The notes beneath the pieces are model-generated. The model did no database searches. It was not told where the DNA came from and saw only the letters and a program-made list of their open reading frames with translations. A DNA stretch of 64,000 nt from Mactromeris polynyma (Eukaryota > Mollusca > Bivalvia > Venerida > Mactridae). Location: NCBI GenBank assembly GCA_032209605.1, contig JASFXZ010000008.1:1736001-1800000 (forward strand), in the 5' to 3' direction. A program made the position numbers and the translations under genes. Below are positions 4,480-64,000 of this stretch, piece by piece; the stretch's first letter is position 1; each line of letters opens with the position of its first letter.

Positions 4480-4584
4480 TGTACTTGCTAATTTATAACA
4501 CATAATTGTGTCCATGTGATATCGTGTTCTCACCTTATGGCATTGGTGCTGATATAATTACCACACCCTATATTTTGTGTATAT

Positions 4585-5022: not shown

Positions 5023-5026
5023 GCAT

Positions 5027-5431: not shown

Positions 5432-5479
5432 CATAGTGGTAAATCCTCTACCATTTGTAACGAGCTTACTGTTAAGAAC

Positions 5480-7132: not shown

Positions 7133-7166
7133 GTTACAATGGAAAACTACTATAAAACAACTAGTA

Positions 7167-7628
7167 TTGGCGCGCGAAACTTCCTCATGGTTTGAGAGAA
7201 TCATGTCCAACGAAGACTTTACACATTTTAGACAGATCCATCCATCTATTTCAAAAGTAATTGTATACCAAGTGTTAAATAAGAATTCTTACAAATATAT
7301 CAGATTGTTCATATCTAGATTGTGGTGCAAAATACTGAAAGACAATACTCAACAATGTAATAAATGTACGCTAGTAATTAATGATATGAATGTTCATTGT
7401 GTGCGTGATTGCATTGAAAATCAACAGGAACGATGGGATTTCTTCTCTGACGTCACCCAAATTAATGTCAGCCTTGCCATTGAACTGTTTAATATGACCC
7501 CAGAATGTTTTTATCTCTCACTTCTTGATGCAGAGATATTCTCATCAGATGAATTTATGTCTGTGCGAGATATATTTCTCAAACGCGCATTCACATATGT
7601 ATATAGATGTTTTAAAACTGACAAGTAA
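7167..7628 (+). pseudogene. LINE ORF2 C-terminal domain with Cys/His cluster
   Basis: The frame continues the ORF2 homology after the frameshift at about 7130. It contains CNKCTLVINDMNVHCVRDC, a C-x2-C...H...C zinc-knuckle-like cluster typical of the end of LINE ORF2 proteins. The true domain probably begins near 7133 in this frame, before the first ATG. Confidence 0.7.
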
Positions 7629-11790: not shown

Positions 11791-12261
11791 AAAAAACTGT
11801 AATATTCAGTTGATTCACATCTCAAGTTGTGTGTTGTGCTTCAAACACCAGTTACCCTTCTCAGTGTGTAGGGTTCGTGAAAAGCCTCGGACGACTCCTA
11901 TGTTTATAATTGTCGTCTTATTTGTTTACATATGTTGATGAACATGACAAAGTAAAACTACCTCATTTATTGGCATCCATTTCTTTCATGAACGGTATTC
12001 TAAATTACTTCTGATGGCAAGTGTTACAAGCTCATTTTGGTTGACCGCAGTTTTGATTAACTTAAAATGTCTGACTTTGTACATTTTGCAAACACATACA
12101 AATCCTCCCATTGTGGTAATGATCAATAATTCAATGTATACCGGTAAATCAAAATTTCAATGGCTTGAATTTAGAAAATTCCATTCGCATCTTATACTTT
12201 GAATTGTAAGCAGGCACGCAAATATTTTGTATCTTACAATTACAGGTTCATTTTACGAAAT

Positions 12262-13374
12262 ATGGATCACCTCGAAGAGGAAGGAATTAAAAGAGTTGAC
12301 CAATCAAATACGTCGACACAGATTCCCAAAGAGGAAGGTTTCTGGGCGACCGTGGATGAGTTCGGACCTATCGAGACTGTCTCCAATTACGTTTTGTTTT
12401 TTGTATGCATAGCAACTGTTGTTAGTGATTCTATAGCGATATATGTTGTTAATCGAGGAAGGAACTTCCCACGTTTCTGTCGCGTTCTGTCAATTAATTA
12501 CCTCATAAGTGACTTAACAGGAGCTGCGATATTTGCCTTTCATCAACTATTAATATTTGCTTGTGGATACAGCTATGAAATCGTATTGATGTCGAGAATT
12601 ACATTTACCGCAATACCCATTTTAATTTCGTCTGCTTCCCTATCATTAATCTCGCTTGAAAGGGTTATGTCGTTGGTTGGTAACTTGAGACACACAGTTG
12701 ATTTTCGTGCAATGCGAATCGCCTCTTTTATATTCGCTATATGGCTATTTAATGCAGGTCTTTTATTTATGTCTGTACTTCTGAAGTTAGGAATTGACTG
12801 TCACTGGGGACTAAGTAATTGTTACTTATTTGATGAATTCAAACTGTCAAGGTACGTTTCTGTAGCAATGCTTTTGATATACGATATAATACTCATCGTT
12901 ACAAATTTAATAATTCAGAGTTTTGTCAGGCGACACGTGACACAAATAATCAAACAACAATCTTCAGTTCTTCAAGGCAGACCACGGACAAACAACAGCA
13001 ATAGTAACCAGCTCAGTCACCAGGAATACGAAATCTGGAAAACTGTTACAAACATACTCATGAGCTACTTTGTTTTGCATATACCGATGTCTGTTTCTCT
13101 TTTTATACATGAATGGTACAGTGATATGCGCAATGAACTTCAACTGAGGATTTTACGGATTATTAGCTTCCTGTGTTTACAGATAAGTTCATTCGTGCAT
13201 TTGTATTTATATGTTTTCAAGTTAAAGGAAAACAAACTGAACATGTATGTTCTACTGTCGCACATGTTTAAACGATACAAACTTCGAGCAGAACAGTTAA
13301 GAATTTCTGTCTATAACATCCCCGTAGTGGCCAACGATAACCACACTATAATTCCCCTTTCGACATGTTCATGA
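12262..13374 (+). CDS. Seven-transmembrane receptor, class A-like orphan GPCR
   Basis: A single 370-aa open exon starts at the ATG at 12262, chosen because an acceptor-like TTACAATTACAG lies 15 bases upstream and the receptor sequence begins there. Hydrophobic segments fit seven helices at about 39-63, 74-97, 107-131, 152-172, 197-221, 260-283 and 296-318. N16-T-S is a possible N-glycosylation site in the extracellular N-terminus. SDL (83-85) matches the helix II Asp; Cys101 and Cys180 or Cys187 could form the loop disulfide. The usual DRY is LERV (132-135), and no NPxxY is visible in helix VII, so it is a divergent receptor. The ligand is unknown. A 5' non-coding exon is likely but not located. 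Confidence 0.8.
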   Translation: MDHLEEEGIKRVDQSNTSTQIPKEEGFWATVDEFGPIETVSNYVLFFVCIATVVSDSIAIYVVNRGRNFPRFCRVLSINYLISDLTGAAIFAFHQLLIFACGYSYEIVLMSRITFTAIPILISSASLSLISLERVMSLVGNLRHTVDFRAMRIASFIFAIWLFNAGLLFMSVLLKLGIDCHWGLSNCYLFDEFKLSRYVSVAMLLIYDIILIVTNLIIQSFVRRHVTQIIKQQSSVLQGRPRTNNSNSNQLSHQEYEIWKTVTNILMSYFVLHIPMSVSLFIHEWYSDMRNELQLRILRIISFLCLQISSFVHLYLYVFKLKENKLNMYVLLSHMFKRYKLRAEQLRISVYNIPVVANDNHTIIPLSTCS

Positions 13375-19194: not shown

Positions 19195-24355
<5,161 letters not shown>

Positions 24356-40367: not shown

Positions 40368-40532
40368 ATGTGGCTATTTTGTTTAAAGACGGTTTTATAT
40401 TTGGTGATAGTGGATAATGTGTGCGGACAAGGACGTATGTTATCCCCGCCAGGACGAAGTTCTTTATGGCGGGTAGGGTTTGACGCGCCCATTAACAACA
40501 ACGACAATGCACTTAGCTGTGGTGGAAACAAG
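40368..40532 (+). CDS. Fusion gene exon 1: signal peptide and LPMO N-terminus
   Basis: The ATG at 40368 starts a hydrophobic signal peptide (about residues 1-20, ending VDNVCG). The mature N-terminus would be QGRMLSPPGR. In active AA15 enzymes the residue after the signal peptide is the copper-binding His, as HGR; here the codon is CAA (Gln21). The exon ends SCGGNK with donor GTAACC in phase 0. An in-frame ATG at 40305 exists, but its extension is not signal-like. Confidence 0.85.
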
Positions 40533-43500
40533 GTAACCAACATATACGTGAAATTACCGTAAATATTTGTAAACTGATACCAGCTGACACTTAGTTCAGT
40601 CTCCCTTATCATAATAAGGGCCACATAATAAGGGCCACAAGCCTAAGTTATTGACAGAACCTATACTTTAAACCGAAATTTAAATGGGCACCGAAATTAA
40701 GCTATTAAGCTAGTCGATTTATCGTACTTTTATGCCCAATTAAGATTTTATTTCTCTTTGAACTTTATGATGAATTTGGTCAGTAGTTGCTGATTTAAAC
40801 TACTTCGTACCAGTAATTTGTCACGGCATTGTTTAGTTTTTTTCCAGTGGAATGGATCTTAATATTAAGTCTACTAGGTGAGGTTTCTCGGCTAGCATAC
40901 ATCTAAAATACTTAATATGCGTTCTCACTAATAAAGTTGTACTCATTTAGTACACTTTTTACACCATGTACGGTTTCTGCTATATATAAACATCCATTTT
41001 TCAAACCAATTATCTTGATTAGTTAATTCATCCAGTTAATGAAAACGGAACATCGAGTCGCCTTTACCTTATTGAATGCAATTCCTCGGATATATAGTTG
41101 CTGTATTTATACAAATACCACTTTTGGTATTCAGCAATGGTCGTCAAACGATATATATTAATTGTGTAGTTTTGTTTCCTGAAACAAATATGGAAAATGA
41201 CCACTCGTGTGTGATTTACTGTTTATAGTAATGCTGGAGCTCTCACCGCTGAATAAAGAGACTCCTGATTTTAGTTTTCATCAGTAAAAAAGCAATTCCT
41301 TTCCAAATAAATAAAACTGTTTATTATACAGATTTATTGCATCAACTATTTAATGCCGCTTTGATCTATGTTCTGGAGTGGTGCTGGGTGCACCATTAAA
41401 CCAAGATAACATTTCATATGGCGTTATTGCCATTGTCCGTTCCAAAGCGGTATCTTCATCCAGTATTTATGTTTGTGTTTTGTGTCCTGTTTGCTCTAAA
41501 AAATTGCTAACAAGTATGCATATTTTCATGCCTCTTGTATTTTTGAAGTGGCTGTGCCTTTGTATGTGGCATTTCCTGCTCGACTTCCATATTCATTTTT
41601 TTGTTATTTCAGAGGCGATGGGAGACCAATGGTGGAAAATGTGGCGTCTGTGGAGACCCGTGGGATGTGACACCCAGAGAGAACGAGGCTGGCGGGAAGT
41701 ATGCTGTTGGAGTGATTGCCGGCGATTATACTGCAGGTTCTCTAATAGAAGTAATAATTGATATTGCTACTGCAAGTGGAGGTTATTTTGAATTTCGACT
41801 TTGTGCAAATAACAATTTCATCAAGGTTGTGTCACAGAAATGTTTGGGTAATGGAGTTCTTTACTTGAAAGATGGAAAGACAACAAAATATGAACACATA
41901 CAAGCAGGTATAAATAAAGTATTTCTCAAACTTCCGGCAGACGTGGAATGCGAACAATGTGTGTTGCAATGGAAATATCGTACAGGTTAGTTCTAATCTC
42001 CATATTGTTTGATCCTGGGTGATAATCAAATCTGGAAAATTCCTATGTGTGCAAAATAAATAGTATGTGTAAATGATATCAATTTACTTACAACTTACAG
42101 TCTCCCGCCCGATTAGCTCACTTGGTAAAGTACGGGACTGTCACTTGGGAGATGCAGGTTTGATTGTCGGGCAAGGTAGGTCTTGTCGTTCCGTGATCAT
42201 CCGTGATATTTCCGGTCGTATGTCCTCCTCTTCTGAATCATGTGTGAAAGTCGTCTGCTGCTTACTGATAGGCAATTTAGGTCTGGTCGTTAATTAATTC
42301 CAGGAATTTTGGTTAGGTCGAGTGACTGTCATATATGACAGAAGAAAATGTTAAACAAAAGTGTTAAACCCAAATCAAACTGACAGCCAACATTTATGAT
42401 TCAAGATACGCTTCAATTTGGTCTTCAATTTTACTCGAAAAGTAATGTAATAGATGCGTCTTAGTTCCGTTTGTCTAGACGATTATAGAGTGAAAAGTAC
42501 TCAAATTTGATATTTTATGGTCTTCGCATGTTGTTTGAACCATTGTTAAATCATGGAAATGGCGACTGTTTTCTGCAACCTTTGTAACTCATTATTAAGT
42601 ACAGAGTGCAGGAGAACTGGGTCATAAGTATTTTTCATAAGTAAGCCTTTAGGCATTGACATAGTTCGGAAATAATCACACTGTGAACACAACGGACAGT
42701 TAAGGTTAGCAAATGCACATACAACGTTGTGCATTCAGTCTCACATACTGACCGGGAAAGGACATAACGCGCGTCCTATTAATTCAAGCGCTCTATTATT
42801 TATTATAGACATATCTCCACCTGCGATCTATTATCTATATTTATCTACATGTATTAGTTTTACGATGCCGGGTGAATGCCAGTTTTTATTGACGCAATTT
42901 GATAGAAATGAAATTGTCTGCATTGACCACAATAATGAGACCACAATTGGTTCGGAAGAAAGTCTATCTTAAATGAGATGTGGTTTGACTATCGAGTTAA
43001 AACATGGAGGAAACATTACTGGAAAAATGGTCCGTGAAAATACGGTCTCATTAATGAGGTGGTCATAATATAGATATGGTCCTTAAGTAATGTTATAAGA
43101 AACTGCATACTATGATAATCGTGCTTCATTTTGGCAAGTATTTAGATCTTAGATGTCTGTTCAAAGAATAACAATACAAATCAAAGCGCTGATAGCACTG
43201 GAGTTGTTCGGTATTGAACACTGGTTTTGTATTCAACACTTTCAGATTCACAGAAAGTACGAATCATCATTGTTTAACCATTAAATTTAATTGCGCAGTT
43301 AAGATTACTACCAGTAGTGGGTTTGTTATGCAGGTTTCGCTCAGATTACGCTCAGATGTTGAACTATTTTAACCGATTCACTTACGTGTTATTCTTGCGC
43401 CGCTTCCGGAAAAAGAAGTTTTCGTAGTTAAGCGATGCGACTGTCGAAAATTGCAATAGACCTAGTTGTTCTACCAAACAATTAAAAATGATATTCTGAT

Positions 43501-46500
43501 TCAATGACTTTTTGTTTACATACTTTGCATATTCCGTATGTGATAAGAAAGTTACAATGTGAAGTTAGTAATGTGTCAGTTCAGTGCAGGTGTTTAATAC
43601 CGCCATATTTCTTGTCATTAATAGCAATTGTTCAATGTGTCAATTTTCCGAAACCTTTGACGTTTTCTTGGCTGTAATATCATCTCATGGTACTCGAGTC
43701 GTAAATGTAAAGTGAAGTAGAACGGTTGAACTGATAAGAGACTGAAAGTTTGACAGATTTCTTAAATCATTACGCTTTAACGATATGAAATATACTTTGA
43801 CACATTGTCATCTGTGATCTGCATGTAAGGCACATCATAATTACCATAACGAAGATCGTTTTATGTCGTATTCCAATAAAACATGTACACTATAATTACA
43901 TCATACATATTTAAATGACGCCCTGGACAGTATTATCAAATTGTGTTCATCCTTCTCCTTTTTTGAATATCAAGTTAAAGTATATCCTGATTAAGTTGTG
44001 TACTCGTTTTGTTGAGAACACAAAGCATGTTCATGTTTTAAATAATATTTGGTTCTTAACCCTCCGCATGTTATTAGTTCTTAGCTAAACGAGTAGAAAA
44101 TTGTAATATGTTTGATTAACTCCCAACATTTATTGAACACAAAACAACAGCAGTAGCCCCGCCTCCTAGCCCCGCCTCCTAGCCCCGCTTCCTATAATTT
44201 AAGTCTCGAGGTATTTTGCCAAAATAAATAAGTCCATTTCGACGGCTGTGGAACAACATGAAATACGTTTGTCAAAATTTTGAAGACCTCGATTTTAATC
44301 GGATACGGAACTTGATTGAACCATAATTGTCCATGATGGAAGGATGACTGTATTCATGAACTTGGGAAATGGTACAAAACTTCGATCCGAAAACAATAGT
44401 TCTTTAACACAATAATCATATAACCAGCTATTGGTAAAAACACAAATAACGGACACGACGTGATATGTGTAGTAATGATATATGTGTCGCTTTTTGCAAA
44501 TAATAATTACTTTTATTAATTAGCTACATGACAAAGATCTCGTAATTACGTTGTAATTCGTCCGGAGTTGTAACTAATCAATTATGGATAATTTCCCCGC
44601 ATACTGTCTGGACGTCAGGTGTTACACGTTGAATACAACTGAAGCAATTATCAAAAAGCGACATTAATTAGCATTATGTAAAAAAATACGCATATGCGTC
44701 CAGTAAATCTTATTACAATTGAAGCTTTTTTACATCTTTCATTCGTTGTATAATTATTCTGTCATGATTGATCGAAAGCATGTTGAGGATAATGTTCATT
44801 TGTCGCAATTTAATAGATACATACTGTGAAACACCCTTCGGGAGGCGAATATTTTGGCTGTTGATAAAAGGTTGATGATTTTGAGAGGCTAAATAATAGT
44901 AAAACGTTTACTACGGAATACAATTATGCTGTTGCCTCGAAGAGATGTTGTCGCTTAAACGAGGATCATTCATGAGGGATTGGGCGGTAAAAATAAACAT
45001 TAGACACAATACTTGTCCTTTGCTGGAAACACCGAGCTAACATGAGATTTTAGATTCGTGATCGAAATTTGATATGGACCCCGACTTGGATAATGAATTG
45101 TTTAATACGATCACGGAGATCGAACGCACGACTATAAGACACTTAGTCTAACGCACAACTTTTAGAGCCCACTTCCTTTTTTATCTTGTAGAACACATTG
45201 CGTTACAATAAGACATATAAATCAATACCATTTTATTTGTTATAAGTACAGGTAGTTAATGAAAGAAATTAGAAGTCTTTAAGTTTTAAATGTATGTCGT
45301 ATTACGTTGGCGAAGTCTACAGCTGATGAACTTGTGGACTGAATATAGGATATTGTATCATTGTCTGAAGTTCATTTAAGTCAAGTGGAAAACTTAAGGT
45401 AACAAACCATTTGATGTCATTTATTTCTGTTTGAACACGTACGTTTACTGTTCTAAAATGTCACTGTGGTTAAAGCTAGTTTTTTAAGTAACCTTTATTA
45501 ATGAAAATAACAGATGCATTGTTTTATCTGTATATTAATTACTATAAAGCTGTATTCGTGTTTGACGTATATGGATAACAGAAGGGGATGTTGGTTATAT
45601 TTGTATCTTAACATCAAATTTGTGACAATCGGCAATTTATTTCACTCCTGTTAAAAAGTTTTTGTTCATGAACTGTTGATTCACGATACGCGGAATGAAC
45701 ATAATCGTGTTTTCGTAAGTTTCCGAGCGTTTCCGAGCGTTTCGTTATAGTATCGGGAAATAGTTCGTCTGTATATTGTATGTAAGCAGTTTTCTCATGA
45801 TCACTTAAAATGAGACAGAGCAACATTGTGTAGGCAACATTCACAAAACAGGACTTCGCCATACATATCTTCAGATTATAATATGAAATATACAAGAGGG
45901 GGGGGGGGCGTGGCACAGAACAAAACTCAAAGTAGAGATCGCGAGGACTAGATATAACTGCACAGCCGTTAATAGTGAAGGGGGTAATTTAGTCTGACAA
46001 CATGTCAACCTCACACTTAACTATTTGATGAATGTTTTACAAATGGGGTACAGTGGACGCTCAGTAATAGGACCATCATTGGTTTTTAAAACTAGGTCGT
46101 AGTCGTGGTAGGGTCTGATTATCGAGATAAAATAGAGACGAAATCATACAAACTGGTCCATGATCACACGCTTTTATGAATAAAATGGTCTTAACACTGA
46201 GGGGTGTTTTAAGTAAGGCTGTACTGTACATCATCAAAACCTTTATAGGAAAATATTTATATCATTTTTAATAAATTATAAATGACATTGTGTTGCTAAA
46301 CTATACAAAAACATTGTGTGTAGTGTGTAAATGGCTATTTTTATATCAATATACCAAACTTTTAACCACTGTTGTAAACTACAGTTTCTATACACAGAGT
46401 GAAATACTATTTTGATGCTTGGAAAATACTATATTCTATGCCTCACACTTGCGAAAGGGATTACCCTGAGAGATTCGACGTTATTTTGTATCTGAATCTC

Positions 46501-49500
46501 AGTTATACAAATACACCGGCTTGAGATGTATTTAATTTGGGCCCATCAAAAGGACCGACGGACGTACATAGTTTAAATTCATTAATGTTGCTTTCCTTAT
46601 TGATTTCAGCCGACCAATACGGATGCGACACAGATATAGGCACCAAAAACACTACTTGTGGATTCGGTCACGGTCCGATGCAAACAGAGTACTACGCATG
46701 CGCGGATATAGCAATTCACAAAAGAGGCGTGGATAACACTCACAATGTTTTGTACGATGTAATAGAACCCAACATAATTAACGACAACGTAACCATGTCT
46801 AAACTGAACAGGAACAAACGACAGGTTCGTTGGAATAATCCCCAATTTGGAGTGAACAAAGGGCTGCAATATTTACCCGGGCAAGATCCAGAAATGACAA
46901 ATTCTAGAATGAATCATCGAGTCAATCCGATGTTCGACAATACAATGTTCGACAATACGAGGTTCGAACCAGTGACACATCGTCAATTTACTACACCTGA
47001 TACAACATGGGGTTGGAATAATGAGCAAATGAACCGAAACCAAAATGGTTTATCTAGAATTCGCCGTCGCACCCCGCAAGTAAGACCAATGCAAGAACGT
47101 ATTCAGTTAGCAAATCCTCATTTAAATGGTGTCATATCTGCAACTATACTCGGTGGAGGGCAGGTCCGAACCGGCTTCAATCGACGACATAATGGACACA
47201 TTCCTGAGCACACTGGTCCAGTGCCAACTCTGGTCATGCCAACAGAATCATCGATTGTTCGAACCCTTTCATCTCAATCTTTTGGAAGAGATTTGAACCG
47301 TTTATTCTCTATAAACTCAAATCCAACGAGTTCACATCAAATTACAATCAAAAAAGTTTCCAGACCTAGGAAAAGATTGATCAAACAATTTTCAGACACA
47401 TCAAGAATACATCGAAAATTCTTAGACCCCATGAGCGCTAATCTCGGGCATTCAAAAGTCACTGTCCACACCGTCACACAAAAAGTGCTTCGAGGGGCTT
47501 CTCGTACTACCCCAACTCGACAGTGTGAACATTGTCCGTTCGACCAATGTTTGGATGACAAACTTCGTATGGACTATCTGTTTCCTGGCTTATTTGATAG
47601 TCCTACAAACTTTTTTGAATGCAAAAGGTACGAGCGGGTTTTTACAATAGGAAATTACGACGTCATACAAGAAGGTTTGCCAAGCTGTAATCATCCAAGA
47701 TTTAAGCGACAGCTCCAAATGCTTGATGACGATGAAATAGGATGCTGTAGCACGTAAGTTCTGTTTTAACTTTAATTAGTGTTACTTCGGCCATTTGTTT
47801 ATGTTTTGTTTAACCGACGAACCGACACTCTTTTTGCCATTTTCAAACAAGAAAAAAAGAAAAATGACAATGAACAATACTATTATGAAAACATTATGGC
47901 GCGGTACCGTGTATCGGTAACGTTCCGGCTTTTATACTCGCTAAGATACCGGCTTTTATACTTCCACGTGAGCGCGTGGAGTCACAGGATTAGCTTTGCT
48001 GATACGGCAAAATGCCGATTTGGTGGTTTGGTTTGATATTTTCCACGACAGAGAGCAAGCAAACCACAAGAGTGCTCCTCCTTTGAATAATTGGAAGTGG
48101 GTGCATATTGTTTTACCCCTGTCGGTCGGTATGACAATCGGTCAGCAGATCTTTTGTCCTCCTCTTTTCAAAACAAATCGGTAAAACTAAAGAAAACTGG
48201 CCTTACGGGTTTTCATCTACATGCATATTGACGTTATATCTACTTAATTAATATTTTGAATTTAATTACTTTACATTCGCGGCCTGATGACATGCTCCGA
48301 TACGACGTTCCCCATCACTGAGATGTAGGTGATTACAAAGGAAAGAAACAGCATTAGACAAATGAAATACATGGGACACATAAAACACATACATAACACT
48401 TGGAACACACAGACACACTGAACCTAGAACACATACATCACATGAAGACAGATTGAGCAACAAACAAAGGATAAACGATCTAAGTGCTTTTCGTTTTGAT
48501 TTATTTGCCATCATAATATTTACATGCACTGTAGAGCAAATTACTACAACTAACATTACTCACTTTTGATGACTGCTTCACGGGGCACTACACAGTACTT
48601 GCGGCCATTTTCGAGATTGTGCAGACTGAAAATAAATCTCACCGACTCAAACTCATGACCATCGTATTAGAAAACGGTCGCCTAGACCCCTAGACCAATA
48701 TACCCCCTTGAACTATTTTATAGTATCATTCAGAACAGAAACTTACCTGAAATGATAGAGACTAAATGGGAAAATATTAAATCAATCTGACTTACGTTCC
48801 TTATCGGAATGAAATAATGTATATGTCAGTGCATTGTGATCAATATCTAAAACAATTTTTTTTAAATTCTGATTCATAGATTCATTTGTCATGTCCTTAA
48901 ATATACACGAATAGACCTGCTTTAAATGTCGATGTCCAGTTTAGACACGGAAATGCGGTATAGTGTTCTTAATAACTGAAATATTCGAAATGACAGGAAC
49001 GTGTATCTAGGTATGAAGTTTCAGTCGTATTAGACTCATAACTTAGTCATGTAGTATACATCTAGTCATTGCATTCATATTTAACAAAGATGACATTTGA
49101 GCGCAAAAGTGGCAATTTCCTGACTCACAATAAAGATGACAGCAGCCATTAGTAAAAACACATGTACAATGCAAGTCATATAAAGCTCGGTGTACAGTTA
49201 CGACTTTCTGTGGTTATCATAAATTGTGGACATGTTTGTTAACATTGTACAAATATAATTTTATGTAACACAACGTTAATGACAGGTTGTAAACCGCCGA
49301 TAATGAATTAAGTATGTACAGTGTTATCGCGAACTGTAGGACTACATTATGAGTACAAGCATTACTCGGGGTTAATCAACAAGACTTATATAAAGATACG
49401 GTTGAAGTATATCATCGGCCTACAGCTGAGATTTAATAACTGAAAATAAATCGTGTTTGCTTTGTTTGTGAGATCATAGTTCGCCAAGTTTTCGTTCTGT

Positions 49501-52500
49501 TATTGTTTAACATCTTACCGACATCAATGGGGTGTTGTATAATTTTAATTTGGGCACGCACAATTTCGAAACAGTAAAGGGACAAAAACATGCAAATATT
49601 TGTTCGTACAATTCAAGCAAACTAGCGTAAAACAGGGTACAAATGCAGTGTAAAGTGTAAATGTCCTACCCACTTCTCGTGAAACAGAACTTAACCGATT
49701 TATTCATAAACAATGGGTTTTGTCATGTTCTACTTCTTGTATATATCCAAAAAGTATAAATTGGTTAAACTGATTTAAAACTCATTGATGACTTATTATT
49801 ACTTGAATGTTTTTATTTTAAAGAGCTCAGACAAATTTATCTGGCCAATTTTTTATCGACATTCAAACATAAAGTTTAAATTGCTGATAAAACACAAACT
49901 GTTGTCAAAATTCGATAGTTTGCTATAAAATGATTCTTGTTATAAAAAAGCCCTACTGGTTATCTGAAGATTCCTATTTTAGAATATCGATGTTAGATTT
50001 GTAGTGAAGTCATTGTTGATATTTTAGTAAAACATACGCGAACTTTTTGGCAACGCCCGGCTATCACCGTTGGTAGAGCGCTAGACTGTCACCCGGCAGG
50101 TCCGGGTTTTATTTCCGGGTTGGGCAGGTTATGTTCTCCCGTGACATTGGCTACGGTCATATCATCAACATGTGTATAAATTGTTAGTTGCTTGCGGAAG
50201 AGCAAGTTAGTACTAGTTGATAATTAATTCCAGGAAAACTGATTATGTCGACCTGTGACCTATACGGCTAAACAAATTGTTAAAAATGAGTAAAACCGGA
50301 TGAAAGAAACAAAAATACGCGAGCATTTAAAATATGATGATTACTTAATAATACAATGTATTTTGATGACAGGTCGCTAGTAATCATTTTGTCTTACTTT
50401 CATATAACAACAATGTTCTATTTGTATTACATGAATAAACAGTTTACACAATGGTTTCCATTGTATGTGTGGTTTCAACAAAACCATACTCTGTATGACA
50501 GTTTGAATCTGAATCAACTTGAAAAATAAAGAAACATCTATAGAATTATTAATCTGACATTAAGTACAGACTGATTTAAGGAGATTACAATTTTCGTGTT
50601 TTACGTGACATTATTTGAGAGCGAACGTCTCTTACGATAATACGTCATTGTCGTGTGCTCATGAACACACTTTTTGCAAATTCAAAAGGATTTTCAACAG
50701 GAATATATTGTCATTGTTTTCAATAAATGTGGTTGATAAAAACCACTGAAATAATGTTCATAGACATTGCAAAATTTAGTATTAGTCACGTAAGTTAAAT
50801 TTAGGTTGACCGTTGCTATTTCATGAGTTTTCATAAAACTATGGCTTCTGTGTTGCCAAACGTTTACAAATTGTCTTTCCTGCGTATAGACAAAAAATTA
50901 GAAAAAGATTATTCTGTCTAATCATCAAAAAGTTGGCTTATACACACACATGTTTGATACTGATGTATACCGTAAATCTTATTATAACATGACATGTGTG
51001 AATCATTTGTAATAAACAAAACGAATTTAAAACAGGAAACTGGTTCAAACATGAATGTGCTGCAACGTCTACATATCTCAATATAGAGCTAATGCCTCTT
51101 GTCAACAAGTGAAGTAGGCACTTAAGAGGTCAATGATTGCATTTTGCTATGGCCAAAAAAAAGGTTCCCTTTCCGGTCTCCTGTCAAAAAAAAGAGGGTA
51201 TTATTTTTGGCCTATAATATTTCTCACATAAAGCCGGCTTATGTTGAACAGCTAGTCATAATCTGTTTCAAGTTAACCAGAACGAACCAGTCTTAGTGAC
51301 ATGTTGGAGAGTATTAGCCCCGAGTTCACAAAAAAAACTTAACTGACATTTAACTCACTCTCACATTATCCAAACCATAACAGTATTGTGCATCCTCTCC
51401 AGAAACATTTGGAGATGTTTGCTGTTGCTGAAAAGTTGTTGATTCAAAGCAGTGAAAATGAGATTGTAACTCAAGAGAGTGCTGGTTTCTGACAGATTGC
51501 ACCGTATAAAAACATTTAGCTAATAAAAATAAATGACATGTAAACTATTCTTAACTATACAAACACTATAACCAATAGCATAATTATTTTATCATAAGGG
51601 TACATTAAATGAAATATCTGGATCATTTTGATACGTTTTCTGAAACAGGGACTTAAAGTTTCCCGAATATTAATCCAGTCTTTGCTCTGAGCCTGAGAAA
51701 TGTCAAAGTTAATAGGTCAATATTCTCTTCCTGCCATGTCTACGTCTGTCAGAAGTGGAATATGTCCGCGATATAGAACGGATGTAATTATGAAGGAGCA
51801 CGCAACCTTAATTGCCTCTTACATTTCAATATGCTTCTTCCTGAACTTCTTATGAAAAATACTTCTTAAATATAATGCGTGTCAAAGTTTAACATGCGTG
51901 TATACTCGCGTGATCTCCTAGGTCATTTCGTATTTGCGACTTGAATTGTTTATTAAATGTACTTAAGGTTCTGTGATAAACGGTGGCATAGAGGTGACAT
52001 GTGTGAACTTATTTCTAACTCATTCCCACGACTTACTTACTCGTTCCCACGACATACTATCTCGTGGTCACGACTTACTTACTCGTTGCCACAACATAAT
52101 TATCTCGTGGACACGACTTACTTACTCGTTGCCACAACATAATTATCTCGTGGACACGACTTATGTACTCGCTCACACGACATAGTAATCTCATGACCGC
52201 GACTTACTAACTCGTTCCCACGACTTGTTTATCTCGTTCCCAAGACTAAGTTATCTCGTTCCCACGACTTAACTATCTCGTTCCCGCGACATAATTAGCC
52301 AATCAAAATGGCCCAATATTTTCACTAGAATTTCGCGATGCTCAGATTTGTAGAAACGTTTTCCAAAACACACTAAAAATATTGTCATATGTCATTAAAT
52401 CTTTAAAATATCGTAATAATGTTTTTTATTCCGTTCGCTTTCGCCTGACATTTCGATCGCGAATTCTAGTGAAAGTATTGGACCATTTTGAGTGGCTTGC

Positions 52501-55500
52501 TATGTCGTGGGCACGAGATACTAAGTCGTGGGCACGAGATACTAAGTCGTGGGCATGAGATAAAAATACTTTCAAACATGTCACCTATATGCCACCGTTG
52601 TGATAAGCTCAATGCCGTTGTGAAATTAGCAGTAACTACTTATATAAGCCATACTGCAGCTGCAAATCACTGCAGTCATCACAATTATGACTCAGTTGTA
52701 GTACATGTTTGTACACTTGTCAGCAATAAAAGCAGTGACACTTTAGGCCATGCCAAATTGGAATTTTGTTAAGTGTCCGCGTGCGCCTAGGTTTTGCGCT
52801 CCTCGAGCCAAACAAAACAACATTTGTCTAAGCCAAAAATTCTCAAATATTTTCGATATCCATGATTCGACAACGGCAATTTTAGTTGAGATCCAACGAT
52901 GTGATTATTGTGTGAAAACTAGTCAATTTGTGTGAAAACGAGTCAGTTTTAAATCAGATTTATTCATGTATAGATCTAGTTTTGAAACAAACCATTTTGT
53001 TTTGTTTTTATGATGTTTCTTTCATCAAAGTATGCATCACTTATTATCTGAGGATATTTGCTATTTCGTTATGAGTTTGTGGTTTTATTTGAATAGGTAG
53101 CAAGGTCTCGCGAACTTAGGTTGACGCTTAACAATATTCCAATTTGGCATTGCCTTAACTTGTGTCAACAGTGTGCGTACATTAAATTTTATTAAATTTC
53201 AAATATATAAAATACAGAAATTGAAGCAACTGTATGCATTGTGCAATTAACTAACTGACTACATTCTATTTATGTATACATTCTCGAAACCTGACGGAAG
53301 AGAGAAAAAATGCTGACTAAAATTATTCTGAATGTCACACAAACTGGCCATGAATGCCAACTACAATACCGACAGGGGGTTGGTTATGTGTATAGTAGTT
53401 CTAGTCGTATGACTTCTAGTACTGTTTGAACGGTTTAGAACAGAGATATTGATGATGCTTTCACTCCTACTATTAATATTTCAAACCGGTAATTAGGTAT
53501 AGAATTGCTTCAATGAATGTGCGCCATGACTTGACTGACCGTATATAACACATATTTTCATTAATTAATGTCTAAGACACCAGTCCTATATATTTGAAAA
53601 TTGAAACTAACTGGAAAATGTTCACAAATGTAAAAATGCTCACAAATGTGAAAGGGTTACAAATGTGAAAATCATGTCTCAAGGTAAAATGGTTTTAAAT
53701 ATGAAAATGGTCTAGTGGTCTCAACTGTTAAAATGGTGAGAACAGTGAAAATGATACAAATATGAAATAATTTATCTCATATGCGAACAATTTTAAAGAG
53801 TTATATACTATTTAAGATTGACATGAATCAGGAAAACAATGGTTAGGCAATGCAATTGTCATGCGTTACCAACATCCTTTAAAATAAGGCGTAATATTAA
53901 TATATAAAGTTCATGCGGTCTCATTAAGGGCGTTGAATCGACAGTATACGGCTTAGCGCAACATGTTGCAATTAGCCAAAAGCAATATATCAAACATTTC
54001 ATTTCTTAACACCTACAACATAATATAGTTTTAATGACAAGTGTTTGCTAAAAACTTCAATTTGATTGTCGTCTGTCCAAGTTTCAAGGCTCTGAAGTAT
54101 GTACATGTATATATGAAATATAACTCTATGTCAAGAGTTCAATATGTAGCGACTATAACTTACTCCTAATGACGTTTTATTTCAAATTTGAATTTCTGAT
54201 TGTTTCAGACGACCTCAGGTGATTCTACCGTTGACTGTTGAAGCTGACAACGACACATTTAGTGTTGTTCAACTTAATGATCAGAAGAAACAGTTCATTG
54301 TTCAAGGAATCTGCAGGTAAGCAAAATATTACATTACAATCACTTGCTCCTGACTTTCCCCGCCTTTATCTATAGAGATCTATTTTCAAGTTAGATATTC
54401 GGAACCTAACTTTTGAACAGATACTTCCAGTAAGTGGAGAAAGCCGGTGTATACATTGGATTTTGCCGAATAGTTACACTGTCATTTATTACATTAATTA
54501 TACGGGATATGTCTCGTACATCCAGTAAGCATAGTGAGGGACTTATCACATTCTTGCCACGTTAATTGTAAGACACACAATGTCAATAGTTAGGACATGT
54601 CACATATGCACAATGTCAATAGATAGGGGTATGTCACATACGTACTGTGTCAATAGTAAGGGATATGTCACTTAGGTACTGAGTCAATAGTTAGGGATAA
54701 GTCACTTAGGTACAGTGTCCATAGAGAGTGATATGTCACATACGTACAGTGTCCATAGAGAGTGATATGTCACATACGTACTGTGTCAATAGTTAGGGTT
54801 ATGTCACATACGTACTGTGTCAATAGTTAGGGTTATGTCACATAGGTACAATTTTAATAGTAAGGGTTGTGTCACTTAGGTACAATGTCAACAGTAAGGG
54901 ATATGTCACATAGGTACAATGGCAATAGTAAGGGATATGTCACATAGGTACAATGGCAATAGTAAGGAATATGTCACATAGCAACAATGTCAATAGTAAG
55001 GGATATGTCACATTGGTCAGTGTCAATAGTAAGGGATATGTCACATAGCAACAATGTCAATAGTTATGGATGTGTCACTTAGGTACAATGTCAACAGTAA
55101 GGGATATGGCACATAGGTACAATGTCAATAGTAAGGGATATGTCACATAGGTACAATGTCAATAGTAAGGGATATGTCACATAGGTACAGTGTCAATAGT
55201 GAGTGATATGTCACATACGTACAGTGTCAATAGTTAGGGATATGTCACATACGTACAGTGTCAATAGTGAGTGATATGTCACATACGTACAATGTCAATA
55301 GTTAGGGATATGTCACATACGTACAGGTTCGATAGTACGGGATATGTCACATACGTACAGTGTCAATAGTGAGTGATATGTCACATACGTACAGTGTCAA
55401 TAGTGAGTGATATGTCACATACGTACAGTGTCAATAGTGAGTGATATGTCACATACGTACAGTGTCAATAGTGAGTGATATGTCACATACGTACAGTGTC

Positions 55501-58500
55501 AATAGTGAGTGATATGTCACATACGTACAATTTCATTAGTTAGGGATATAAGAACATACGTACAGTGTCAATAGTGAGTGATATGTCACATACGTACAAT
55601 TTCATAAGTTAGGGATATAAGAACATACGTACAGTGTCGATAGTACGGGATATGTCACATACGTACAGTGTCAATAGTGAGTGATATGTCACATACGTAT
55701 ACAGTGTCAATAGAGAGTGATGTGTCCGAAACCTCCGAGCAGTAATTTGACTAGTGTATCTCAAATCATTACTACTTTTAAATGCATGGGGGAGAACTGC
55801 TGCAAGGAGATTGGTCACGTCCGTCATGAGCCTTAGCTCGTGTTCTAAATCAAGAGGCTTTTCTTTACTGAAATGTAAACATGTACATTGAAAATATATG
55901 CTTAAAAAGTTTTATGAAACCCATTTCGGTTGGGTTTTTTTCTGTAAAAGTTCACTTTTTGTTATGCTTTTAACATCACTTAAATAATAAATGTTCACGC
56001 CATGAACAAAATGAAAACGGAATAAAATAGGTCAGCGACTAATAATAATGCACTAAATTCTTACACAAGCGGCGATCAGACAGTGTATCTACATTGCTTA
56101 AACTGACAAAGTTAGTTACTATGTACAATAAAAGTCAGCATATGAGCAGATAGTAAAGGAAAGAAGAAAGTATCAGTTTTAATATCATGACACTGATCCT
56201 CAACTATTTATGACCTGAATACCATCTGATATATTCAATAAGTAATAAAGTCTGCATGTATCATATATCCCACTGAAATGGACAATAAACGTGTCGATAT
56301 TGACGGGCTCAAGAGACAAATATGCTGAACTGGGTCATAGCGTTTGAAAGTCTCATAATGTATTCAGTATAACAGTTTATAGTGTTATTACATTCACCGT
56401 GAACTGGTGAATACACTTTCAGGACATTTCCATGTCAATTAAGTTAAAGAAATGCTCTCGTAAAACTATAACTGATGTTTGGTTTACTTTTCTATCAACA
56501 CACTACCATGGCCTTCTCTCTGTCAAGCTTACGGACAAACATGAACATTTCAATACAACTACATGTACATCGTATTTTGAAATGTAGTGGTACAAGTAAT
56601 ATATTCATACGTTCGCGGTTGAAAAAAACAACACAATACCAATGTTGAACAGTAAATGTCATAACAAAGTTGTTCATGCGCTTTTTTCGAGGAATTAGTA
56701 ACAACGTCATGTTTTGAGGAACACGAAAAATCGGTCAATGGCGCTTATTTACGTCAGTTTAATGTTCATATTTGTCTTATAAACTGAATACAAAGTAAAT
56801 CAATTTTTATGTTGAAAATTCTAAATTAACGGCCTTACGGTATTACTTAGTATGAGCGAGACACAACATGTTTCTCTCTCTCCCTCTCTCTCTCTCCCCT
56901 CTCCCTCTCTCTTGTTATATGGCAGTTTCCGACCACCCAAATCGCATTTCATGTCACAAACATATATACCTTCTGTTGATTCGGTATTGAGATGTATCTA
57001 AACCGAAAGTAGCCTATTTAAGATATCGAAACAAAAGTAGGGATTTTGACAAATCGTAGAAGCTGTCCTACTCTATCGTTTTTTGGAAACTATGTTTCTT
57101 CACATTAAAAAACCTTTTGCATTCATGTTTTCATGTCAGAAATTGTCACATTGAGCAGTTCATGCCCATAGTTCTTCTGAAGTTGGGAGTTGAATGTCTT
57201 ATTAATTGCAAATTATGTCTAAATGTCATTTAAAAAAGCTTACGGTGGCAAGGATGTCATCATCAAATATTTCAAACACTTTTTTACATAAATTAAATAC
57301 ATGAAAAATGTCGCTTTAAAGTACTAAACATACATAGTGTTATAGATGTATCTGGCTCATCTGAATGTATTTTTTAAAAGGGCTTCAACCAGTATTGATG
57401 TTACATTGGCTAAAACATCATTAATAAGAACCATTACAATGTATAACGGAAATCATCTTGTTTTATTATGTTACTTACTGTCAAAACTTGTAAAAACAAC
57501 TGTTTGTTAAAAATACTGAAAGTTATTTAATTTCATGATAATAAAACCATCGTTTTGCAACAAATACAGAGGAATACTTTATTAGTGTATTCTTTGATTG
57601 CGCCATATTTATTTACGTTTTGACTATTTGAAGTTTAATTATTCGAAGGCTATATCGAGAGGCATTGTTCATATTAACGACCAAATCTTTAATAGCGAGT
57701 TTATTACTATTTAATTAGTGTTAGAGTTACGTTGTCGTTCAGGACTTCAGGACACGTGCTATAGTTGTAAATATTCGCAAACGCTTCATTAAATGTCTAG
57801 TGAATCCTTTTCCAGACATTTTTACAAGTGAATCGGAGAAATCTCCTACCAACATCACCACAGTATGACAGATATTTCAAAGACAAAATCGTTTCTAATT
57901 ATTTTTCCATTGTCATACACAATCATATTTATTTCGTTTAGTGAATGATATAGTTCTTGAAATAAGTCGATAAGTATGATTTTATTATTTACCCGATGCC
58001 AATACTCACAGCAGCTCTTAGGGTCGGTCAATATATCTACCTATACACACGTCCCATCGCTTTCGACGTTGCACTGTACATAATGCATACATTGACAAAC
58101 GAGAATAACACCGTGGACACCGTATACGCCGCACATACGGTGACTACGCCTATAATACGGTATATTATATGCTCCATTTCCGGCATTATTGTAAAAAGGT
58201 TAACTTTCACGTAAAAAAACTGACGAAATCCGTCGTTTTTTCTCGAACAACTATTACTGGCCAAAACAAAATTAACTATCGGAAACTTCAATCATCTGTC
58301 GTTCGTGCTGTCTATATTGTTAGTCGGAATACAAAACATTTCAATAAAAATAAACGTTTTTTCTTACCACACTCCATCGTTTGTTTAAAAATCTATAGGA
58401 AATGCCGGAAACGGGGCGTGCGATATACCGTAATGTATGCGTAGTTACCGTGTATCCGGCGTAGACTATGGCCACGGTGAATAAAGCCGATCAAAGCATA

Positions 58501-59438
58501 CGTACTTAATCATCACTTTCTTGTAACGTACGACCTGTAATTAACTGTTGTAACAATATACAATTAATAACGTTTTACAATGTAAAAATGCATAATTGAA
58601 CATAATCATATTGAGGTATTATGTATGTTTATGATGGACATGTATAAAACGTATCGAAGCTTTGTTGAATTAATTAATTACAATAATTACATGGAATGCT
58701 TTGTATTTGAAGTTTTACGGCGTATTTTAATAGTACGTGTATTTCATTTGTGAACGGCAGACCGTAGCTTTAACCAGTGTTCCTGGGTTACCCACCAGGT
58801 ATTTTATATTAATACTTTATACAAACGTATATTAATATAATTTGATAACTGTTTTCAAAATGTCGGCGTTTTGTTCTCTTTAATAAACAAGAAATATATT
58901 GAAAAAAGATGGTCGGTACATTTTGAAGGTTAACATTTGTTGTGCAACTTAAATAAATGCCGAGATGTAACGATTGCTGGTCATTCCAGATCCAAATGGA
59001 TTTCGGTAAATTCACCGAAATTCGGTGGATTCCGGTAAGGGAACGTACCCTGTATCGAAAGTTTAACCAATCCGCGTCAAGGTTACCTAACCTTGTCGGT
59101 TGAAGAGAAATTGCTATTGTGGTTAACGTAACATTTGATTGATGTACACAACACTGATATGCAAATAGCAAAACCATGTTAGTACGACTGCGCCAAAAAC
59201 AACAATGTTATAGAATTATGAATATCACATACTGATTGACAACACAATAGTAATAAAGTATGTTTTATATTTCAGAAAAGCTAACACAACATCGTGTCGA
59301 GTGTGTTCTGTGGAAAACAATTTTCAATGGGTGTTGGTATACGATCCACGTGTGAATACAAACCCTCCCGTGTCCTTTGTTCCTGTCAAGTTTCCTCATT
59401 ACTGTAGATGTTATAATTACATGTCACTCAAAGGATAA
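40368..59438 (+). CDS. Secreted fusion protein: inactive-looking AA15 LPMO domain plus Spaetzle-like cystine knot
   Basis: Five exons (40368-40532, 41613-41985, 46610-47753, 54209-54316, 59276-59438) have GT/AG junctions and matching phases 0, 1, 2, 2, giving exactly 651 codons (650 aa). Residues 1-20 are a signal peptide; 21-215 an AA15-type LPMO; 216-484 a basic Asn/Arg-rich linker; 485-546 a Cys-containing pro-segment; 547-650 a seven-Cys knot like Spaetzle. The LPMO C-terminus (YYACADIAI) and the start of the knot (GCCS) lie in one uninterrupted exon, so the fusion is not a gene-model artefact. Furin-type RNKR (247-250) and RFKR (543-546) could release a 104-aa ligand. The His1 position is Gln21, and the second copper His is absent. 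Likely role (inference): extracellular signalling or immune ligand with a polysaccharide-binding pro-domain. It could instead be another cystine-knot family. Confidence 0.87.
41613..41985 (+). CDS. Fusion gene exon 2: LPMO core
   Basis: The acceptor TTATTTCAG is followed by RRWETNGGKCGVCGD, the AA15 signature. The segment where the second copper His normally sits reads TASGGYFEFRLC (108-119) and contains no His. EQCVLQWKYRT near the end matches the family's QCV.QW.Y.T block. The donor GTTAGT leaves phase 1. Confidence 0.9.
42100..42370 (+). repeat. SINE family A copy in fusion-gene intron 2
   Basis: The tRNA-like head CCCGATTAGCTCACTTGGTA (A-box) and GCAGGTTTGATTGTCGGGC are followed by a diverged core (TCTGCTGCTTACTGATAGGC, AATTCCAGGAATTTTGGTTA) and a GTTAAACCCAAATCAAAC tail. 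Confidence 0.7.
42371..46050. other. Fusion-gene intron 2, no exon supported
   Basis: The intron holds a diverged pogo-like fragment near 43015-43080 (GGTCCGTGAAAATACGGTCT), a threefold GCCCCGCCTCCTA repeat at 44156-44195, and a tRNA-like head at 45100-45180. A frame at 42546-42734 with CPLCSQCDYF shows no exon borders. Confidence 0.45.
46051..46220. mobile_element. Pogo-like MITE in fusion-gene intron 2
   Basis: It begins TA|CAGTGGACGCTCAGTAATAGGACCAT and ends with TGGTCTTAACACTGAGGGG then GGCTGTACTGTA. The ends are imperfect inverted repeats with TA flanks, resembling 23387-23562. Confidence 0.5.
46610..47753 (+). CDS. Fusion gene exon 3: LPMO C-terminus, linker and knot pro-segment
   Basis: The acceptor GATTTCAG is followed by DQYGCDTDI...TTCGFGHGPMQTEYYACADIAI, the C-terminal block of AA15 LPMOs. 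The frame then runs unbroken through the Asn/Arg-rich linker with dibasic sites at RNKR (247-250), IRRR (330-333) and RPRKR (431-435). It continues into CEHCPFDQC (485-493) and RFKR (543-546), and ends in GCCS. An ATG at 46537 in the same frame is intronic. The donor GTAAGT leaves phase 2. Confidence 0.9.
47754..51978. other. Fusion-gene intron 3, first part, no exon supported
   Basis: It contains a minus-strand tRNA-like head (48600-48720). A family A SINE at 50056-50322 is listed separately. Frames at 47779-48556 are not coding by any cue I can see. Confidence 0.5.
50056..50322 (+). repeat. SINE family A copy in fusion-gene intron 3
   Basis: CGGCTATCACCGTTGGTAGA head, TTGGGCAGGTTATGTTCTCC junction, GTTGCTTGCGGAAGAGCAAG core, AATTCCAGGAAAACTGATTA, and a GATGAAAGAAACAAA tail. 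Confidence 0.8.
51979..52599. mobile_element. Foldback element with asymmetric tandem expansion
   Basis: Outer termini AACGGTGGCATAGAGGTGAC (left) and GTCACCTATATGCCACCGTT (right) are inverted. Inner arms around 52295-52338 and 52450-52497 (CACTAGAATT.CGCG and AAAATGG.CCAATA words) are also inverted. Between them the left arm carries about a dozen or more units like TCGTTCCCACGACTTA. The right arm has only three complementary units, GTCGTGGGCACGAGATACTA. The overlapping frames are repeat-derived. Confidence 0.75.
52600..54208. other. Fusion-gene intron 3, last part
   Basis: A degenerate repeat at about 53615-53780 consists of ACAAATGTGAAAATG-like words at roughly 19-bp spacing. No exon is supported. 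Confidence 0.45.
54209..54316 (+). CDS. Fusion gene exon 4: cystine-knot core
   Basis: The acceptor TTGTTTCAG opens residues 561-597, TRPQVILPLTVEADNDTF onward to VQGICR. The pattern C-S...V..P....AD.....V...D...Q.....C matches the first half of Spaetzle-type knots in both spacing and residue type. The exon is 108 nt, phase 2 in and out, with donor GTAAGC. Confidence 0.82.
54570..55726. repeat. ~34-bp minisatellite in fusion-gene intron 4
   Basis: About 34 units of GTCACATACGTACAGTGTCA + ATAGTGAGTGATAT. Left units are more diverged (GGTACAATG, AGTAAGGGATAT variants) and right units more uniform, suggesting recent expansion at the right side. Confidence 0.9.
55727..58108. other. Fusion-gene intron 4, no exon supported
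   Basis: A CT-rich microsatellite lies at about 56872-56911. Otherwise AT-rich, with no recognised feature. Confidence 0.5.
58109..58479. mobile_element. Foldback MITE, family 2 copy 3
   Basis: The left arm CACCGTGGACACCGTATACG..CGGTA and the right arm, whose reverse complement is CACCGTGGCCATAGTCTACG..CGGTA, are inverted over about 53 bp. It is 371 bp, in fusion-gene intron 4. The frames on both strands here are not genes. Confidence 0.7.
59040..59200. repeat. Dispersed repeat, inverted partner of 24665-24845
   Basis: In reverse complement it reads GGCGCAGTCGTACTAACATG, TTACGTTAACCAC and GACGCGGATTGGTTAAAC, as at 24665-24845. It ends about 75 bases before the last fusion-gene exon. Confidence 0.55.
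59276..59438 (+). CDS. Fusion gene exon 5: end of cystine knot and stop
   Basis: The acceptor TATATTTCAG opens residues 598-650 (KANTTSCRVCSVENN...HYCRCYNYMSLKG), ending at TAA. It supplies four knot cysteines (604, 607, 640, 642); with 558, 559 and 596 the mature domain has seven. The terminal P-H-Y-C-R-C resembles the P-S-C-C-x-C end of Spaetzle proteins. N600-T-T is a possible glycosylation site. Confidence 0.83.
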
Positions 59439-63133: not shown

Positions 63134-64000
63134 GTATTCAACAATCGCAGGAACGCTGATACTCATCGTGTGTAAAGCATTGTTAACAATCGCAGGAATG
63201 CTGATACTCATCGTGTAAAACACTGTTAACAATCCCAAGAACGTTGATACTCATCGTGTGAAACATTGTTAACAATCGCAGGAATGCTGATACTCATCGT
63301 GTAAAACACTGTTAACAATCCCAAGAACGCTGATACTCATCGTGTGAAACATTGTTAACAATCGCAGGAATGCTGATACTCATCGTGTAAAACACTGTTA
63401 ACAATCCCAAGAACGCTGATACTCATCGTGTGAAACATTGTTAACATTCGCAGGAATGCTGATACTCATCGTGTGAAACACTGTTAACAATCCCAAGAAC
63501 GGTGATACTCATCGTGTGAAACATTGTTAACAATCGCAGGAACGCTGATACTCATCGTGTAAAACATTGTTAACAAACGCAGGAACGCTGATACTCATCG
63601 TGTGAAACATTGTTAACAATCGCAGGAACGCTGATACTCATCGTGTAAAACATTGTTAACAAACGCAGGAACGCTGATACTCATCGTGTGAAACATTGTT
63701 AACAATCGCAGGAACGCTGATACTCATCGTGTGAAACATTGTTAACAATCGCAGGAACGCTGATACTCATCATGTAAAACACAGTTAACAATCGCAGGAA
63801 CGCTGATACTCATCGTGTAAAACATTGTTAACAATCGCAGGAACGCTGATACTCATCGTGTGTAAAGCATTGTTAACAATCGCAGGAACGCTGATACTCA
63901 TCGTGTGTAAAGCATTGTTAACAATCGCAGGAACGCTGATACTCATCGTGTAAAACATTGTTAACAATCGCAGGAACGCTGATACTCATCGTGTAAAACA
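63134..64000. repeat. ~43-bp minisatellite running off the window
   Basis: About 20 units of AACAATCGCAGGAACGCTGA + TACTCATCGTGTAAAACATTGTT. Variants (CCCAAGAACG, GTGTGTAAAGC) group locally and alternate in an early higher-order pattern at 63180-63480. The minus-strand 60-codon frame is repeat-derived. Confidence 0.92.

Follow-up and report, generated by a model that had tools for sequence, protein, structure and literature searches.

A bivalve gene joining an AA15-type domain without copper-binding histidines to a Spaetzle-like C-terminal segment

Results

Gene organization and encoded protein

Analysis of a 64,000-nucleotide stretch of the genome of the bivalve Mactromeris polynyma (assembly GCA_032209605.1, contig JASFXZ010000008.1, positions 1,736,001 to 1,800,000 of the forward strand; hereafter the window, whose own positions are used throughout) revealed a gene that joins a domain of the AA15 family of lytic polysaccharide monooxygenases (LPMOs) to a Cys-rich C-terminal segment, here called the knot, that resembles Spaetzle. 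The gene lies on the + strand (40368–59438) and comprises five exons, all with GT-AG borders and compatible phases, separated by introns of 1080, 4624, 6455 and 4959 bases. The encoded protein of 650 amino acids (aa) contains, in order, a signal peptide, the AA15 domain, a variable linker, a Cys motif, a furin-type site and a C-terminal segment of 104 aa. Exon 1 (40368–40532) encodes the signal peptide (approximately residues 1–20, judged by eye) and the N-terminus of the AA15 domain, and exon 2 (41613–41985) its core. Exon 3 (46610–47753) carries the AA15 C-terminus with the axial Tyr, a Cys-free linker, a Cys motif belonging to the pro-region, and the beginning of the knot (GCCST). Within this exon are RNKR, a furin-type motif 3' of the AA15 domain (46810–46821), RIRR, a second and less conserved basic motif in the linker (47056–47067), and the pro-region motif QCEHCPFDQC...LFPGLF...C (47521–47709), which ends in HPRFKR, the furin-type site preceding the knot (47698–47709). 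The mature knot starts with QLQMLDDDEIGCCST (47710–47753), continues with RPQVILPLTVEADNDTFSVVQLNDQKKQFIVQGICR in exon 4 (54209–54316; 108 bp, with both ends in phase 2 and GTAAGC as donor) and finishes in exon 5 (59276–59438) with CRVC...WVLVYDPR...FPHYCRC and the stop codon. All of these features lie on the + strand, and the segment after HPRFKR contains exactly 104 aa and 7 Cys.

The initial annotation had described a secreted protein read from five exons in one 650-aa frame, with exon 3 alone linking the AA15 domain to the furin site and the first knot cysteines. This description was exact to the base, with GT-AG borders and matching phases, and the length of the C-terminal segment was likewise exact, although exon 4 had been given no coordinates; a hydrophobic N-terminal leader was recognized by eye. 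Exon 3 is one exon of 1144 bp, with a single open frame running from TEYYACADIAI, the AA15 C-terminal block, through the linker to HPRFKR and GCCST. Because this exon by itself holds the last AA15 block and the first two knot Cys, the fusion is independent of exon choice. Skipping of exon 4, which would be phase-compatible and yield 615 aa, was considered and rejected, as it would delete a strongly conserved knot block found in all 11 aligned orthologues. Intron 4 contains a minisatellite of 33 copies of 34 bp (54577–55713).

Recurrence of the fusion among bivalves

A protein search with the whole sequence returned 194 significant matches, and the results reported here rest on the best 120 of these. 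Among them, at least 11 homologues contained both the AA15 domain and a complete knot (P0001–P0006 and P0008–P0012). Five are named, namely Mactra antiquata (P0001), Mercenaria mercenaria (P0002), Dreissena polymorpha (P0008), Potamilus streckersoni (P0010) and Sinanodonta woodiana (P0012), and the remaining six are 'lgn' entries (P0003–P0006, P0009 and P0011), which may be assembled sequencing runs. The closest homologue among the matches listed was that of Mactra antiquata, with 65 % identity over 100 % of the query, and eight of the 11 showed 44–65 % identity across 99–100 % of it. P0011, which is missing its N-terminus, was 37 % identical over 96 % of the query, while the best single local alignments of P0010 and P0012 spanned only 33 % and 25 %, although both have the knot; the P0012 model is without exon 1. 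Compared segment by segment with its 11 orthologues, the query was 50–70 % identical in the AA15 domain, 16–53 % in the linker, 41–92 % in the pro-region and 58–89 % in the knot.

The six lgn homologues lie on contigs of which the longest measure 1973–3332 bases, compared to the 19-kb gene with introns of 1.1–6.5 kb described here. As contigs of this length are too short for introns of this size, the exons would be joined in one mRNA in these relatives, and the six entries are most likely spliced. Transcripts ending within exon 3 and never joining exons 4 and 5, which would have spoken against a fusion, were therefore not what was seen in relatives, where the six short-contig homologues span both domains. 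Two further matches, P0016 and P0040, are exon-3 reading frames. Taken together with the recurrence of the same architecture in five named bivalve genera, these data confirm, as far as sequence can, that the two domains are fused in one protein.

A second search, using only the pro-region and knot, gave 14 matches among 98 candidates, none of them new, and a third, using a five-row alignment, gave 4 matches among 536 candidates, all of this gene family or its single exons. No unfused close relative was seen among proteins of approximately 110–350 and 360–1150 aa in searches whose sensitivity depends on shared 5-residue words. Other AA15 matches with long tails were also considered as carriers of the knot and discarded, since only 14 of the 120 listed proteins matched the knot hidden Markov model (HMM) and the next best had an E-value of 0.52. 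The precomputed Pfam annotation of P0001–P0012 shows PF03067 alone, so that the fused architecture is hidden in databases.

The AA15 domain retains its fold and has lost its copper site

The AA15 domain was identified by a Pfam LPMO_10 match that passed the cut-off (E 1.6e-9) and by its similarity to the solved AA15 LPMO of Thermobia, TdAA15A (PDB 5msz; E 5.3e-45). An AlphaFold2 model of the Dreissena orthologue was moderately confident over approximately residues 91–230 (block means 66–87) and of low confidence in the first third of the domain; Foldseek aligned it to 5msz with an E-value of 9.7e-14 over 183 columns, a TM-score by target of 0.66 and a root-mean-square deviation of 5.1. Ten Cys are conserved in AA15 according to passages of PMC5823890. 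The domain described here has ten, and all ten were found in the 12 aligned sequences, apart from one that falls in the missing N-terminus of P0012.

The same source, in the passages available, gives the copper ligands of TdAA15A as His1 and His91 and its axial residue as Tyr184. At these positions the query has Gln21 (domain position 1; codon 40428–40430) and a Ser encoded in exon 2 (codon 41775–41777), while the axial Tyr is retained. This was examined in an alignment of 125 rows, consisting of the query plus 124 domains that scored ≥60 bits and came from 118 proteins, with 13 rows belonging to the fused family. Position 1 was Gln in 11 of the 11 fused rows that truly have the segment (P0011, which starts later, and P0012, whose aligned Gln is spurious as exon 1 is missing, were left out of this count). 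The His91 site held Asn, Ser, Gly or Asp in 13/13 fused rows, with no His, and the axial column held Tyr in all 13. Of the other 112 AA15 rows, approximately 95 % had these His: 103 of the 107 with a letter at position 1, and 105/112 at the His91 site. The AA15/LPMO domain of the initial annotation is thus upheld as a fold, but not as an ordinary enzyme.

From these alignments, the AA15 domain of the fused family is a predicted pseudo-enzyme, in which the fold-bearing residues have been kept and the catalytic copper site lost family-wide. Every fused member in which these positions are visible has other residues for both His of the copper brace, and oxidative action on chitin or cellulose would therefore not be expected. 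Of the flat-surface residues of TdAA15A, Tyr24 corresponds to Asn and Tyr166 to Tyr, and glycan binding is therefore unpredictable in either direction. Cleavage by signal peptidase before Gln21 could produce a pyroglutamate N-terminus.

A phylogenetic tree was inferred from 78 AA15 rows (the 13 fused rows, five unfused rows without the His brace and the first 60 others; the remaining other rows and one row of <150 aa were excluded) and rooted at the midpoint. The 13 fused rows formed one group with a support of 100/99, in which two unionids were sister to the rest. The simplest reading of this tree is a single fusion that predates the split of freshwater mussels from venerid and mactrid clams. 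The knot was absent from all proteins with scallop, oyster or true mussel names among the 120 matches listed.

A second, unfused bivalve AA15 group (P0099, P0113, P0117, P0118 and P0119; 100/99 in the tree) is likewise without either copper His wherever these positions can be read. Position 1 is Arg in three of its members and the segment is missing in two, and the His91 site is Ile, Val or Met, apparently reflecting an independent loss.

Processing motifs and linker

Of the 12 aligned sequences, 11, the query included, have an R-x-[KR]-R motif after the AA15 domain, P0009 being the exception. Such a motif precedes the knot in 12/12 (as RFKR, RFRR, RVRR or RVKR), in agreement with the furin-type site that had been proposed there, and a further one lies in the linker in 9/12 (RIRR in the query). 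The stretch that separates the AA15 domain from the pro-region motif is Cys-free in 11/12 sequences, P0011 having six Cys. With no Cys in it, no disulfide in this stretch would join the AA15 part to the knot after cleavage, and the two parts are probably cut apart. The direct coupling of polysaccharide sensing to signalling that the initial annotation had envisaged is consequently doubtful if understood as covalent, given furin-type motifs on both sides of a linker that is mostly without Cys. A non-covalent complex of the two parts after cleavage is possible.

The C-terminal knot and its unfused paralogues

The mature knots of the 12 aligned sequences measured 104–110 aa and contained exactly 7 Cys. 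The Pfam Spaetzle profile (PF16077) matched the fused protein with E-values of 0.29 (whole protein), 0.047 (knot and pro-region) and 0.013 (the 104 aa). In a Pfam scan of ten orthologous knots, Spaetzle was matched by seven (best E 0.047) and was the only family to be matched more than once. BLASTP of the knot against Drosophila Spaetzle gave E 0.001 as a single comparison. Of six knot ligands, Aedes Spaetzle scored best with all three bivalve HMMs (fused, paralogue and combined), although NGF was close with the paralogue HMM (5.2 vs 5.4 bits). NCBIfam gave no match. A Pfam Spaetzle search of the whole genome also found nothing, which does not show absence, since three exons share the knot and the control genomes were negative too.

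The genome (793 Mb, 299 contigs) was searched with the knot, which recovered the three exons of the fused gene and four other places, one at C228 (E 5.6e-5) and three at C1. When the fused-family HMM was applied to 84 kb around these places on the + strand, it matched the last exon at C228 with E 4.9e-12 and four last exons at C1 with E 1.3e-6 to 3.8e-6. The C228 gene (C228:2721509–2727725) encodes an unfused protein of 203 aa with a leader, a pro-region and a knot read as CCST|DYRYE...GRCR|TNSTC..., its exon 4 having been picked among many mechanical candidates by splice signals and the GRCR end. At C1:49964272–49997879 there are four tandem unfused copies (CCET|ELRVTAPGQVML...GEC...CRGIGICTQRY...CECMN), read without their first exon or exons, of which one was recovered only shortly upstream of CCET. 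In the C228 and C1 knots both introns are placed as in the fused gene, in phase 2, and exon 4 measures 105 bp compared to 108 bp. At least 52 AA15 exon matches were found in the genome at E ≤ 0.001; none was on C228 and the single one on C1 was 15 Mb away. With no AA15 match near them, these paralogues are therefore not fused to a recognizable AA15 domain.

Pfam Spaetzle matched the C1 paralogue with E 4.9e-5 (24.3 bits, profile positions 2–95 of 96) and C228 with E 0.0028 (18.7 bits, positions 15–95 of 96). The description of the knot as Spaetzle-like, made in the initial annotation, is thus supported mainly through the unfused paralogues, alongside the 7-Cys segment of about 105 aa behind R-x-[KR]-R, and stands in part, as every one of these matches lies below the PF16077 cut-off of 27 bits.

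Other features of the window

A search of the window with Rfam gave no match at the gathering cut-off. A 43-bp tandem array occupies 63140–64000 and reaches the window end. A long open frame on the - strand (19195–20346) encodes what we take to be alpha-tubulin. On the + strand, a 399-aa frame at 12175–13374 looks like a seven-helix receptor, and frames at 4558–7628 resemble, by their look, a non-LTR retrotransposon endonuclease and reverse transcriptase.

Discussion

Our study suggests that this gene encodes a secreted bivalve pro-ligand, in which a non-catalytic AA15-like prodomain precedes a Spaetzle-type C-terminal ligand, and we hold this reading to be modestly favoured, a little better than even. 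The chain would be cut in the secretory pathway at its R-x-[KR]-R motifs, and the C-terminal 104 aa would form a cystine-knot dimer acting as a receptor ligand, the odd number of Cys being as in Drosophila Spaetzle C-106. Within the prodomain, the AA15-like piece would have no catalytic role and would fold, carry or tether the latent ligand, the tether probably being to an extracellular polysaccharide matrix. The Spaetzle prodomain stays non-covalently bound after cleavage, and the AA15-like piece may remain bound in the same way.

A number of observations weigh against this pro-ligand reading. The fused knot scored 16.5 bits with PF16077, where the cut-off is 27, and the C1 and C228 scores are also under it; beside the Spaetzle match of the fused knot stood the unrelated family M157 (E 0.021). 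The knot found no match in the PDB, either as a single query or as a profile, and neither did the C1 paralogue. Using hhalign with shallow alignments, the probability was 0.2 %, and column shuffles with Cys columns fixed scored equally high. HMM scores against two Spaetzles were weakly above those of shuffles, which reached the same level in 5–175 of 2000 cases. With the fused HMM, for example, this happened in 98 of 2000 for shuffled Drosophila Spaetzle (70 with Cys held) and in 9 (13) for shuffled Aedes Spaetzle; with an HMM built from two Spaetzle sequences, it happened in 7 (18) of 2000 for the shuffled query knot. Two of the three bivalve HMMs (paralogue and combined) gave noggin a higher score than Drosophila Spaetzle, and one of the three did the same for NGF, while the Spaetzle HMM placed NGF above three of 12 fused-family knots; the noggin sequence, a typed human fragment, scored lower than Aedes Spaetzle with each of the three bivalve HMMs. 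The three C1 places were not significant alone in the genome search (E 2.2–2.8), becoming so only when the family HMM was run on a restricted stretch. In both AlphaFold2 models of orthologues, the predicted local distance difference test score of the knot was <50. Furthermore, P0007, a Ruditapes isoform (X2), stops four residues past the exon-4 sequence (GICGSQPR), which suggests an alternative 3' end giving a truncated knot as an annotated form.

The furin-type motifs and the fast-changing, mostly Cys-free linker would equally suit a polyprotein, from which the AA15-like part and the knot are released to act independently, the fusion serving merely to co-produce both. The whole fused clade has lost its His brace, which suggests that the role of the AA15 domain changed with the fusion and argues against independent action; however, a non-fused AA15 group has lost the brace too, so that this counterpoint is not conclusive. 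We regard the polyprotein as a minority possibility. Similarly tentative is the proposal that the knot is nearer to the Trunk, PTTH or noggin type and acts on a non-Toll receptor, such as a Torso-type kinase, or as an antagonist. Trunk has been reported in molluscs and Torso in lophotrochozoans, according to passages of PMC6660194, and Spaetzle was only weakly separated from NGF and noggin, in a comparison that represented these three types by noggin. Set against this are the Pfam matches, in which Spaetzle was the sole family to recur among the ten knots and its profile covered nearly the whole C1 paralogue domain, and the first rank of Aedes Spaetzle among the six ligands.

The abundance of AA15-type domains in the genome would fit an extracellular- or shell-matrix protein, in which the dead LPMO is a chitin-binding module and the knot cross-links without signalling; chitin is a component of the shell matrix. 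This appears improbable, given the strong conservation of the knot, the furin-type site that precedes it in every aligned sequence and the resemblance of the unfused C228 paralogue to a small secreted ligand. An artefact of the gene model, whereby two adjacent genes or a pseudogene are read as one, might be suspected from the spread of the exons over 19 kb and the minisatellite in the last intron. We consider it highly implausible, as exon 3 itself bridges both domains and the same architecture is found again in five named genera and on short contigs.

Returning to the pro-ligand, a more specific form of it is a matrix-tethered latent cytokine, in which a glycan-binding pseudo-LPMO parks the Spaetzle-type ligand on chitin or another polysaccharide until proteolysis or matrix damage frees the knot. 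This is speculative and falls well short of even. If true, the ligand would report the state of a polysaccharide, and in animal signalling the LPMO fold would serve as a prodomain that addresses a ligand to glycans. Passages of PMC7773633 describe the Toll-like receptors of molluscs as binding microbial products directly and the clam Paphia undulata as the only source, as of 2020, of a spaetzle homologue outside arthropods; a role in Toll signalling is for these reasons a question rather than a conclusion. The fused gene also draws attention to a group of mollusc Spaetzle-type genes about which little is known.

In agreement with the initial annotation, which knew of no such protein, no description of an AA15-Spaetzle-type architecture was found in a search of mostly open-access literature, from which spellings of Spaetzle with the umlaut alone escape. 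What is new in the gene is that it combines two known families, one of which has apparently lost its function there. Animal LPMO-fold proteins have been studied as enzymes; here a bivalve lineage appears to reuse the fold, with its copper site dropped, joined to an apparent signalling ligand. The gene offers a concrete case in which the reuse of an LPMO fold as the prodomain of a ligand can be tested.

Compared to known AA15 LPMOs, represented by TdAA15A (5msz), the fused protein shares the fold, the ten Cys, the axial Tyr and a leader whose removal would leave position 1 exposed, but has Gln in place of His1 and Ser, Asn, Gly or Asp in place of His91. Its C-terminal extension is a ligand-type knot, unlike the carbohydrate-binding modules, glycoside hydrolases, WSC domains or glycosylphosphatidylinositol anchors of known AA15 proteins, as far as these are covered in passages of PMC5823890 and PMC8615602. 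In another AA15 system, too, the AA15 domain precedes a C-terminal stretch that is Cys-rich and conserved. However, its His brace is intact and its tail consists of two 6-Cys repeats (C-X15-C-X3-C-X6-9-C-X4-C-X1-C) that have been likened to chitin-binding domains, whereas the fused knot is a 7-Cys segment behind a furin-type site.

As in Spaetzle (Drosophila C-106, PDB 4bv4; Aedes, PDB 7b1c), the C-terminal part of about 105 aa follows a cleavage site, a predicted one in the fused protein; the Drosophila chain likewise contains 7 Cys. In both, a first knot Cys and the Cys of the IEEC/QGIC block are 36 residues apart, and the chain ends in C-x-C. Unlike Spaetzle, the fused protein has an AA15-like prodomain and a sub-threshold Pfam score, the double Cys is found at the beginning of its knot rather than just before the C-x-C end, and the next two knot Cys are separated by 2 residues rather than 13. 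The site before its knot is of the furin type, whereas that of Spaetzle is a serine-protease site. A Spaetzle-type gene in a clam, as here, has one precedent that we know by citation alone, the 'First mollusk spatzle homolog' of Paphia undulata (Yu et al. 2015, cited in passages of PMC7773633 and PMC6915886).

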